Shown: one piece after another, positions 2,793 to 49,993 of the stretch | Layout: every line of letters starts with the position of its first letter | Position numbering within the stretch: position 1 is the first letter of the stretch | Assembly: GCF_008087345.1 (NCBI RefSeq) | Contig: NZ_VHIB01000001.1 | Coordinates: 992,001-1,056,000, forward strand | Direction: 5' to 3' | Source: Nocardioides caldifontis | Lineage (GTDB): Bacteria; Actinomycetota; Actinomycetes; Propionibacteriales; Nocardioidaceae | DNA length: 64,000 nucleotides | Program-made: the position numbers and the translations under genes | The notes under the pieces: model-generated | What the model saw: only the letters and a program-made list of their open reading frames with translations | Told to the model about the DNA's origin: nothing | The model's database searches: none

Positions 2793-3821
2793 ATGGACGT
2801 CGAGATCGCCGGTGTCGTGCCGGGAGCGTTCGAACGGTGGCTGGCCGAGCAGGCACCGCAGGTGGCGCAGCCCCTGACGACGAGCCTGCTGACCGGCGGG
2901 CGCTCGAACCTGACCTACCGGCTCGACGCGGCCGACGGCGCCCGCTACGCGCTCCGACGACCGCCGGTGAGCTCGGTGCTGCAGACCGCGCACGACATGG
3001 CGCGCGAGTGGCGGTTCCTCCGGGCGCTGGCCGGCACCGCCGTACCCGTCGCGGAGCCGGTCGCCTGGTGCGACGACCGGTCGGTCGCCGACGCCGACTT
3101 CTACGTCATGGGGTTCGTCGAGGGCCGGATCCTCGACGCGCCCGGCTCCGCGGACCACCTCGACCGCGCGGCCCGCCGTCGCGTCGGTGAGCAGCTCGTG
3201 GAGGTGCTCGCCGCGCTGCACCGGCTCGACGCCGTCGGGCTCGGCCTCGGCACCGAGGAGCGGGCCCGGGGGTACGTCGCCCGCCAGCTCCGCCGGTGGT
3301 CCGCGCAGGTCTCCGCCGTCGAGCCGCCCGAGCTCGACACGTTGCTGCGCGGGGCGGAGCTGCTCGCCGCCCGGGCTCCCGAGCAGCGGACCGGCATCGT
3401 CCACGGCGACTACCGGCTGGGCAACGTCGCGGTCGACGACGAGGGGACGGTCCGCGCGGTCTTCGACTGGGAGCTGGCGACGGTGGGCGACGTCCATGCC
3501 GACCTCGGCTGGCTGCTGGCCACCTGGTCCGAGCCGGGCGACAACGTGCTGCCGTCGATCACCGGCCCCACCGCGGACGGCGGGTTCGCCACCCGCGCCG
3601 AGCTCGCGGCGCGCTACCAGGAGCTCGCCGGCGTCGAGGTGCCCGACCTGCCGTTCTACGTCGCGTTCGCGCACTGGCGGCTGTGCTGCATCTCCGTCGG
3701 CGTCCGCCACCGCTACCTCAGCGGCGCGATGGCCGACGACGGGTTCGACGCCCGCGCGCTGGACGACCAGATCGGCTGGTGGGCCCAGCACGTCGTGGAC
3801 ACGATGGCCGAGCCACGCTGA
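2793..3821 (+). CDS. APH-family phosphotransferase (ACAD-associated kinase)
   Basis: The 342-residue protein has an aminoglycoside-phosphotransferase/choline-kinase fold. The catalytic loop HGDYRLGN is near residue 204 and the metal-binding FDWE near residue 225; an N-terminal GGRSNLTYRL acts as the nucleotide loop. It lies 16 nt behind an acyl-CoA dehydrogenase and has a strong AAGGAG site before its ATG. In this context such proteins are not antibiotic kinases. The closest characterised roles are the kinase half of ACAD10/11 and LvaA, which phosphorylate the 4-hydroxyl of acyl-CoAs so that the dehydrogenase partner can remove it. That assignment is inference from pairing and family. Confidence 0.85.
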   Translation: MDVEIAGVVPGAFERWLAEQAPQVAQPLTTSLLTGGRSNLTYRLDAADGARYALRRPPVSSVLQTAHDMAREWRFLRALAGTAVPVAEPVAWCDDRSVADADFYVMGFVEGRILDAPGSADHLDRAARRRVGEQLVEVLAALHRLDAVGLGLGTEERARGYVARQLRRWSAQVSAVEPPELDTLLRGAELLAARAPEQRTGIVHGDYRLGNVAVDDEGTVRAVFDWELATVGDVHADLGWLLATWSEPGDNVLPSITGPTADGGFATRAELAARYQELAGVEVPDLPFYVAFAHWRLCCISVGVRHRYLSGAMADDGFDARALDDQIGWWAQHVVDTMAEPR

Positions 3822-48052: not shown

Positions 48053-49228
48053 ATGACCGTCCTGCAGAAGAAGCCCGTCAGCCCGATCGCCCACCTCACC
48101 GACGAGGACATCGAGACGATCGGCAAGGAGCTCGACGCGATCCGTGACGAGGTCCTGCGCGAGCGCGGCGAGCGCGACGCGGCGTACATCCGCAAGGTGA
48201 TCGACGTGCAGCGCAAGCTCGAGCTCGGCAGCCGTGCGGTGCTGCTGGTCTCGATGTTCCCGCCGGCCTGGATCGCCGGGACGATCGGGCTCAGCGTGGC
48301 GAAGATCCTCGAGAACATGGAGATCGGCCACAACGTCATGCACGGCCAGTGGGACTGGATGCGTGACCCGAAGATCCACTCGACCGCGTGGGAGTGGGAC
48401 AACGTCTCGCCGTCGGAGCAGTGGAAGCACTCGCACAACGAGCTCCACCACACGTACACGAACGTCGTCGGCAAGGACAACGACCTCGGCTACGGCATCA
48501 TGCGCGTCGACGAGGACCAGCGCTGGGTGCCGTTCTACCTCGCGCAGCCGCTGTGGAACTTCGTCAACGCCTGCTTCTTCGAGTACGGCATCGCGGCCTA
48601 CGACCTCGAGCTCGGCAAGAACCTCAAGAAGGGGCGCTGGAAGAACCCGGAGTTCAAGCGGCGCGCCAAGCAGGTCGGGGTGAAGATCCGTCGACAGATC
48701 GCGAAGGACTACGTCGTGCACCCGCTGCTCTCCGGACCGTCGGCGCTGCACACCCTCGCCGCGACCTTCACCGCGAACCTGGTCCGCAACCTGTGGACCC
48801 ACTCGGTGATCATGTGCGGCCACTTCCCCAGCGGGGTGGAGACCTTCGAGCGCCGCTCGATCGTCGGGGAGACCCGCGGTGAGTGGTACCTGCGCCAGAT
48901 GCTCGGCTCGGCCAACATCTCCGGCAGCAAGGCGATGCACATCATGACCGGGAACCTCTCGTACCAGATCGAGCACCACCTGTTCCCGGACCTGCCGTCG
49001 AACCGCTACCAGGAGATCGCCCCGAAGGTGAAGGAGATCTTCGACCGCTACGGGCTGAAGTACACGACCGGCCCGCTCCCGGTGCAGGTCGCCTCGGCCT
49101 GGGGGAAGATCATCCGGCTCTCGCTCCCCAACGACTTCATGAAGAAGAACGTGGCCCCGGTGATCGGTCTGGTCCGCCGCGACCGTCGGGGGAGCGCGGC
49201 GGAGACTCCCGCCACCAGCGCCGCCTGA
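48053..49228 (+). CDS. Membrane acyl-CoA delta-9 desaturase (DesA3-like)
   Basis: The 391-residue membrane di-iron enzyme has the three histidine boxes: EIGHNVMHGQWDW near residues 96-108, HSHNELHHTYTN near 126, and the third, SYQIEHHLFPDLPSNRY, near 305. It should introduce a double bond into stearoyl- or palmitoyl-CoA using electrons from the preceding reductase. ATG 48053 follows GAAGGAG. Downstream lies the large inverted repeat array, not a normal terminator. Confidence 0.92.
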   Translation: MTVLQKKPVSPIAHLTDEDIETIGKELDAIRDEVLRERGERDAAYIRKVIDVQRKLELGSRAVLLVSMFPPAWIAGTIGLSVAKILENMEIGHNVMHGQWDWMRDPKIHSTAWEWDNVSPSEQWKHSHNELHHTYTNVVGKDNDLGYGIMRVDEDQRWVPFYLAQPLWNFVNACFFEYGIAAYDLELGKNLKKGRWKNPEFKRRAKQVGVKIRRQIAKDYVVHPLLSGPSALHTLAATFTANLVRNLWTHSVIMCGHFPSGVETFERRSIVGETRGEWYLRQMLGSANISGSKAMHIMTGNLSYQIEHHLFPDLPSNRYQEIAPKVKEIFDRYGLKYTTGPLPVQVASAWGKIIRLSLPNDFMKKNVAPVIGLVRRDRRGSAAETPATSAA

Positions 49229-49248
49229 CCTTCTCTGCTCCACGGTCC

Positions 49249-49595
49249 CGCGAGCCGTCGCATCTTCACGCGGTCCAGGTGCCGAGTCGTCGCATCTTCA
49301 CGCGAGATGAGTGCCGAGTCGTCGCATCTTCACGCGAGATGAGTGCCGACCCGGCGCATCTTCACGCGAGATGAGTGCCGACCCGGCGCGTCCTGCCTCT
49401 GATCGACCGCCGAGTCGGCGCGTCCTGCCGGGATACGGCGGAAGGATGCGCCGGCTCGACCGTCGTACGGCGCGAAGATGCGACGGCTCGGCACTGTCCG
49501 GCGTGAAGATGCGACGGCTCGGCACTGTCCAGCCGTGAAGATGCGACGGCTCGCGCCCCTTCAGCGGTGAAGATGCGACGGCTCGGCAGCGTGCG
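49249..49595. repeat. 32-bp-periodic palindromic repeat array between convergent genes
   Basis: The left half holds six forward units of the type GCCGAGTCGTCGCATCTTCA followed by CGCGAGATGAGT, starting at about 49249, 49281, 49313, 49345, 49377 and 49409; spacing is exactly 32 bp. The right half holds five reverse-complement units (CTCGGC ends at 49455, 49487, 49518, 49550 and 49582; spacing 32, 31, 32, 32). The dyad centre is near 49430-49440, flanked by CGGCGCGTCCTGCCG and CGGCGGAAGGATGCGCCG. Inner units have diverged together (GCGCGTCCTGCC). The array fills the entire 369-bp gap between the desaturase and thioesterase stops. Confidence 0.9.
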
Positions 49596-49597
49596 GG

Positions 49598-49993
49598 TCA
49601 GGCGAGGTTCTGGACCCTCAGCTGGCCGCGAGAGACGAGCCGGCCCTCGGTGTCGCGGGTCTCGACGACCCACACCTGCTGCGAGCGGCCCTGGTGGATC
49701 GGCGTGCCGGTCGACACCAGCTCGCCCTCGCTGACCGCACGATAGAAGTCGGTGCTGTTGCTGACACCGACGCACTTCCCCTTGTCGCCCAGCCAGGCGG
49801 CGGAGCCCATGCTGCCGAGGGTCTCGACGACGCTGGCGTGCACCCCGCCGTGCACGATCCCGTAGGGCTGGTGGTGCCGCTCGCCGGCGGTCCACCGGGC
49901 GACGACCTTCGCGCCGGAGACCTCGGTGAACTCCAGCCCGATGTGGCGCACGAACGGCCCGGCGGCGTCGCCGTTGACCAGCGACAAGTCCAT
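49598..49993 (-). CDS. Hotdog-fold thioesterase (PaaI-like)
   Basis: The 131-residue protein has HHQPYGIVHGGVHASVVETL at about residues 42-61, the PaaI-family motif in which the Gly-Gly and neighbouring acidic residue serve acyl-CoA hydrolysis. ATG 49993 shares one base with the phosphoglycerate mutase stop (TGATG). It likely hydrolyses aromatic or medium-chain acyl-CoAs, releasing CoA. It is the last gene before the repeat array. Confidence 0.85.
   Translation of the reverse strand: MDLSLVNGDAAGPFVRHIGLEFTEVSGAKVVARWTAGERHHQPYGIVHGGVHASVVETLGSMGSAAWLGDKGKCVGVSNSTDFYRAVSEGELVSTGTPIHQGRSQQVWVVETRDTEGRLVSRGQLRVQNLA

Follow-up and report, generated by a model that had tools for sequence, protein, structure and literature searches.

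A mirror-image repeat array in Nocardioides caldifontis and its link to a family of AbiEi-like nuclease genes

The array described here lies in a stretch of 64,000 nucleotides from Nocardioides caldifontis (genome G000), which is referred to as the window. It is probably a non-coding copy of a dispersed element, the unit of which would be the cognate site of a protein encoded elsewhere in the same genome and composed of an AbiEi-like part and a Vsr/EDxHD homing-type nuclease. Units of this kind are dispersed, face inwards, are spaced at approximately whole helical turns and are linked to one gene family in many species. Together, the nuclease gene and its evenly spaced repeats, which are found again in other soil bacteria with another repeat sequence in each case, look like an unrecognised kind of genomic element. 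No description of such arrays around these genes was found in the open-licence literature, searched by titles and the beginnings of abstracts, with subscription papers and preprints mostly outside this search.

Structure of the array in the window

The array contains six forward units starting at 49249, 49281, 49313, 49345, 49377 and 49409, with a step of 32 bp, followed by five reverse units at 49441-49460, 49473-49492, 49504-49523, 49536-49555 and 49568-49587, with start steps of 32, 31, 32 and 32 bp, respectively. These coordinates confirm the dyad of six forward and five reverse units at steps of about 32 bp that the first-pass annotation had described. The repeat is far above chance, the 20-nt core having 8 matches in the window (up to 3 mismatches) vs 0.01 expected from 100 shuffles. 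The claim that the array fills the gap between the desaturase and thioesterase stops was borne out as well, as it extends from 20 bp past the first to 10 bp short of the second. The features are:

48053..49228, + strand: fatty-acid desaturase gene, stop borders the left arm (ORF call; PF00487, E 9e-28)
49249..49376, + strand: left arm, four outer-type units (GCCGAGYCGTCGCATCTTCA class) at 32-bp steps
49377..49440, + strand: left arm, two inner-type units (GCCGAGYCGGCGCGTCCTGC class) and central sequence
49441..49460, - strand: right arm, innermost unit, inner type
49473..49587, - strand: right arm, four outer-type units at 31-32-bp steps
49598..49993, - strand: thioesterase gene, stop borders the right arm (ORF call; PF03061, E 1.8e-14)

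The inner variant (GCGCGTCCTGC type) is common to both arms, which had been read as a joint change of the two. This reading was not supported, the inner variant being a genome-wide unit class with 27 matches at up to 2 mismatches. Among 28 long arms, this class took the innermost position in 15 and the outermost in 4; the predominant units of the genus-mate G004 are similar to it. Isolated close pairs of inner-type units were absent from G000 with the pattern used.

As RNA the array, for which a stem of about 150 bp had been predicted, folds strongly (-256.5 kcal/mol; z -13.55 vs 100 shuffles). A search of the array for terminators with a U-tract or T run returned 0 terminator-like sites, and the Rfam search gave two matches, both far under the gathering score.

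A dispersed family in the genome

In the G000 genome 137 copies of the 20-nt core were found at up to 3 mismatches, 75 forward and 62 reverse, while the reversed-pattern control had 1 match. All 137 copies fall within 35 loci, the window included, in agreement with the earlier suggestion of a palindromic element dispersed in the genome. A one-off duplication or an assembly artefact is excluded by these copies together with the unit pairs present in other genomes of the family. Two-arm arrays carry plus units on the left and minus units on the right, so that the arms face inwards; one-armed arrays are also present.

Between arrays the identity was 91.5% in the core and 44% in the 12-nt spacer (30.5% for self-shuffled spacers). 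Within one arm, 23 of 42 adjacent unit pairs differed at at least 4 of the 12 spacer positions, and these 23 pairs had a mean of 1.8 differences in the 20 core positions. The core is therefore maintained by selection or conversion, and the spacers drift. As the spacers of different arrays have diverged, nothing points to a recent burst of copying.

Some arms enclose one ordinary gene (loci L018, L024, L025, L047 and L201). By Pfam these genes are SnoaL-like, uracil-DNA glycosylase-like and dienelactone hydrolase; those of L047 and L201 were named by eye only.

The linked AbiEi-nuclease gene

Outside the window, at G000:C6:187661-188632, a gene is enclosed by array arms of the same units. Its product has an AbiEi-like winged-helix DNA-binding part fused to a Vsr/EDxHD homing-type nuclease, and one protein family was found between the arms in G000, G003, G176, G218 and G305. 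Residues 1-204 match 6y8q and 1zel, and residues 205-322 have the Vsr/EDxHD (I-Bth0305I) fold. With Pfam, AbiEi_4 was above the cut-off in two of the five proteins and missing from the partial G003 call; REase_MTES_1575 gave E values of 2e-8 to 5e-4, under the curated cut-off in all five. NCBIfam gave one weak DUF559 match in one of six proteins, and a sequence-profile search of the PDB gave no match. The catalytic-type residues D, E, G, H and D are invariant in A2; the motif conservation in A3 is partly by construction, because the species scan was run with that peptide.

In the four elements first mapped (L026, L072, L079 and L041) the gene stands alone between the arms according to the ORF calls, and one arm lies directly upstream of it. 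The nuclease genes of G000 and G003 occupy the same locus; identity is 56-57% for these genes but 77% and 87% for those beside them.

These properties bear on the proposal that the gene is a defence or addiction module, the nuclease being held or guided by the arrays and acting on invading DNA. The PADLOC AbiEi models match the N-terminal part, and the literature places MTES_1575 among the Vsr-type nuclease domains that occur in conflict systems (PMC3710099). However, the gene is solitary in the four elements just named, phage records gave no match and plasmid records three weak ones, and hundreds of dispersed arrays would be left unexplained. We therefore regard a defence role as very unlikely.

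Of 16 genomes searched with the profile, 14 bear arrays, and 13 of these have a copy scoring 290-549 bits. The fourteenth, G004, had a split copy of 186 bits. The array-free genomes scored 61 bits at best (G001) and 259 bits (G002). A locus was available for 17 of the 19 copies that reached 290 bits; GCCGA-type units were found beside 16 of these 17 vs none of 13 lower-scoring loci. With a unit-blind test in which some of the inverted matches are plain palindromes, inverted flanks of at least 18/20 were present at 14/17 high-scoring (control 1/17) and 7/13 low-scoring loci (control 2/13); at 17/20 or more the numbers were 16/17 (control 9) and 10/13 (control 4). At least one tandem arm was found at 6 of the 13 low-scoring loci. 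The G002 copy and a second G000 copy have tandem flanks of other sequence.

A restriction of flanking repeats to high-scoring copies was rejected, as inverted flanks at 7 of 13 low-scoring loci mean that such repeats are not special to the high-scoring group. The second G000 copy, L242 (G000:C7:31391-32224), is more distant and has 33-bp tandem repeats of other sequence on both sides. In G004 the nuclease gene appears as two pieces (L235, G004:C21:1426-2216), by decay or by an assembly fault.

Nuclease relatives and their units across species

Starting from the nuclease peptide, one genome per species was scanned in 84,980 species. Among the 102 relatives detected, the analysis covered the 80 best loci; they are mostly from Nocardioides, with some from Marmoricola, Pimelobacter, Kineosporia, Metallococcus, Gordonia and others. 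For 65 loci with both flanks and with controls about 2 kb away, we searched for a 20-mer common to the left and right flanks in inverted orientation. Such a 20-mer was present at 54/65 loci vs 2/65 controls at 18/20 or better and at 61/65 vs 9/65 at 17/20 or better; the threshold matters, with 63/65 vs 43/65 at 16/20 or better.

Of 154 arms 111 were tandem, vs 1 of 145 control stretches. The dominant period was 19-23 bp in 35 arms, 24-28 bp in 1, 29-34 bp in 56 and 40-44 bp in 14; none had 35-39 or 45-50 bp, and 5 arms lay beyond. The clusters at 21-22, 30-34 and 42-44 bp approximate whole helical turns, with the reservation that periods of 42-44 and 64 bp can be harmonics and that many 32-bp loci are of common ancestry. 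In the 15 loci read by eye the units were widely different. Metallococcus carri (Micrococcales) had 250 dispersed unit pairs at 21-bp spacing and 0 in the reversed-pattern control. In Gordonia (L327, L329) very long tandem flanks of units of about 21 bp lie on both sides of the nuclease gene.

Within the family, G305 carries three nuclease genes, mutually 56-58% identical and each with its own unit. In G263, which an identical protein suggests to be Nocardioides sp. CFH 31398, relatives 87% and 78% identical to two of these have the matching unit types. The unit thus differs between species and follows the nuclease rather than the host. Over 24 loci, unit and protein distances were correlated with a Mantel r of 0.43, a value confounded by common descent and obtained on related loci by simple permutation with one of the 24 consensus units (L257, Nocardioides alkalitolerans DSM 16699) out of register; the N-terminal part was not singled out (partial r -0.08).

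Turnover of units among relatives

The G000 core had no match at one mismatch in four genus-mates. The prefix GCCGAGTCGGCGC occurring twice at 32 bp (up to 3 mismatches) gave 86 pair matches in G003 and 23 in G004, and none in G001 and G002. Pair positions are those among the matches listed per genome, with 45 loci taken in G003 and 12 in G004. The units of G003 mostly end in CTTGTGCA. Those of G004 mostly have the ending CGTCCTG plus one further base (A, C or G), which makes them similar to the G000 inner type. The unit type is switched wholesale between genus-mates.

At the orthologous desaturase-thioesterase gap, G003 has two units with its own suffix directly past the thioesterase stop, and in G001 and G002 the gap is short and without such units. 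Nine G000 arms (6 of the 35 loci) have their outer neighbour gene, at the same end, in common with arms of G003 or G004; by a rough estimate fewer than one would be expected by chance. The unit sequence can thus be replaced at an array place that persists.

A generic unit pair was present in 105 of 341 family genomes, with the reversed pattern at no more than 2 in any genome. The highest counts were found in G263 (254), G305 (222), G134 (175) and G330 (156), and the array number ranges from none to hundreds of pairs within this one family. With a stricter pair, 20 of 391 genomes of an order sample were positive, all from the own family. Spacings were mostly 32 bp, with a few of 30, 31 or 33 and with 21 in G203.

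An alternative is that the AbiEi-nuclease is a domesticated chromosome-binding or silencing factor, with the arrays as its functional sites and nothing moving today. Conserved cores beside drifted spacers, the array places that species have in common and the same gene locus in G000 and G003 fit this. On the other hand, the catalytic-type residues are kept, genus-mates differ in their whole set of units, and the array number varies strongly within one family, and we consider domestication distinctly unlikely.

In L169 and L175 of G003 the two arms of one array carry different unit types, one each. Because unit types can occupy opposite arms in G003, the rule that inner units are older is only a tendency of G000. 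In L059 (G203, 2899-3014) the GCCGAGTCGGC prefix recurs at a 21-bp and not a 32-bp step. The unit prefix is nearly palindromic, so the strand is sometimes misread (e.g. L228, L237 and L239).

Position at gene ends

All gene ends are from our own ORF calls. In G000, G003 and G004, 143 arms have an outer neighbour gene no more than 250 bp away; 99 of these face a 3' end (p 2.4e-6) and 44 a 5' end. At distances up to 15 bp, 81 arms lie at a 3' end vs 3 that do not. Random placement inside genes, considered earlier, is contradicted by these positions, since arms close to a gene lie almost always at its 3' end. Contact between the first unit and the stop codon is frequent, with TGAC or TGACC directly before the unit, or with TA and the first G of the unit forming TAG. 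Some arrays are located in co-directional or divergent gaps. An orientation always following the upstream gene was rejected in view of these divergent gaps and of the 44 arms at a 5' end.

In M. carri 12 of 13 distinct arms face a 3' end. These contacts come from 10 of 30 returned loci, with L349 and L351 overlapping and their arms counted once; four further loci or arms were left out because the nearest gene was too far away. In seven arms the overlap with the gene end is identical, at 16 bp (L333, L340, L341, L344, L356, L360 and L331), and the unit therefore seems to supply the last codons and the stop.

Terminators also sit at stops, and the arrays might primarily be bidirectional terminators or RNA 3'-end hairpins, to which the nuclease link is secondary or historical. 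In favour are the 3'-end position (81/84 within 15 bp) and the strong RNA fold; a short hairpin-like stretch, read by eye, is also present at the orthologous gap of G001. Against it, no U-tract was found, and the co-directional and divergent gaps do not fit either. A hairpin fold is present as in an intrinsic terminator, but the T run is absent; a 5' end is faced by 44 of the 143 arms, and one-armed arrays lack a partner arm to fold onto. Moreover, termination requires neither a species-wide core nor a helical period nor a linked nuclease gene. We consider a primary terminator function unlikely.

Comparison with known systems

The closest parallel in logic is the REPtron or REPIN-RAYT system, in which non-coding repeats are dispersed in intergenic regions, the enzyme gene is flanked by its own repeat family and several enzyme-repeat pairs can share one genome, as described in PMC6006769, PMC3116915 and PMC3733652; all of this holds for the arrays here too. 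In contrast, the enzyme here is AbiEi-like with a Vsr/EDxHD-type nuclease, and the units are in tandem at helical spacing in inward arms rather than tagged hairpins. A GTAG tag was absent from the unit, and CGTC occurs only inside the G000 outer core, where most other species' units have GGCGC.

The first-pass annotation had also suggested spread by a RAYT-like transposase. Dispersed, intergenic, palindromic and species-specific repeats, and the parallel just described (PMC6006769, PMC3116915), would suit a REPIN/BIME element mobilised by a RAYT (Y1 transposase). However, a search of 28 genomes, including 19 with 5 or more unit pairs, gave 0 matches to Y1_Tnp (PF01797); among the controls, 5 of 14 genomes were positive. 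A RAYT as the partner enzyme was thus rejected at Pfam sensitivity, and we regard this explanation as extremely unlikely. The element is best read as REPtron-like in logic with an unrelated enzyme, without the transposase by which a REPtron is recognised.

BIMEs differ by their regular alternation of orientation, which is absent here, where a run of one orientation is followed by a run of the other. Unlike in CRISPR arrays, the 12-nt spacers are often alike within an arm, and the arms are inverted. Insertion sequences and MITEs resemble the arrays in their terminal inverted repeats, present here as inward arms.

EDxHD homing endonucleases (I-Bth0305I) and Vsr share the fold of residues 205-322 and the E, D, H, D pattern. 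According to a review, the target on which I-Bth0305I forms a dimer spans nearly 60 bp (PMC3943268). Here, in contrast, the gene is free-standing between repeat arrays and includes an AbiEi-like DNA-binding part, and homing would be an inferred activity. AbiE type IV toxin-antitoxin systems are similar in residues 1-204. AbiEi is described as binding its own promoter at two inverted repeats of 23 bp (PMC7319586), and here one arm lies directly upstream of the gene. The AbiE systems differ in that an AbiEii nucleotidyltransferase toxin gene is not adjacent in L026, L072, L079 and L041, a nuclease domain is added and the sites are dispersed through the genome.

Proposed mechanism

Under the explanation that we prefer, molecules of the AbiEi-nuclease protein would occupy neighbouring units along a single face of the helix, and the whole-turn spacing speaks for protein molecules on one DNA face. 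The nuclease domain might then nick or cut DNA at or beside the arrays, and repair from another array could copy units to new places and keep the units of a genome alike. Three features suggest such spread and homogenisation by cutting and repair: the type of nuclease, the dispersed units and their turnover. At convergent gene ends the arrays may stand in for an ordinary terminator. Against this explanation stand the weakness of the two Pfam matches, the confounded distance correlation, the diverged spacers, the split gene in the array-bearing G004 and the inverted flanks of lower-scoring paralogues.

A wider interpretation, offered tentatively as a serious possibility, is that of a separate repeat class: helically phased AbiEi-EDxHD site arrays that homing-like break repair would spread, homogenise and deliver to gene 3' ends in a number of actinobacterial orders. 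In such a class enzyme and site would co-evolve, and each genome would rewrite its arrays in place. If true, this would be a second, independent solution to the role of RAYT and REPIN, with a homing-type nuclease as its basis. A group of actinobacterial genes for which models offer no name beyond AbiEi-like or DUF559-like would thereby gain a role. Enzyme-unit pairs are available in dozens of loci and therefore form a ready-made set for studying how DNA specificity changes. What keeps dispersed bacterial repeats alike would become a directly testable question.

A motif upstream of the nuclease genes

The motif TCCACAG was present in the 160 bp upstream of the nuclease gene in 40 of 63 loci (L251-L330), in 28 of them at 56-59 bp before the start. 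Downstream of the gene it was found in 0/63 loci, and in control windows in 10/723. It could be read as a fixed-distance promoter or a replication-linked element. The longer form TTRTCCACA, which we take to be the actinobacterial DnaA box, was read in 14 of the 63 upstream regions.
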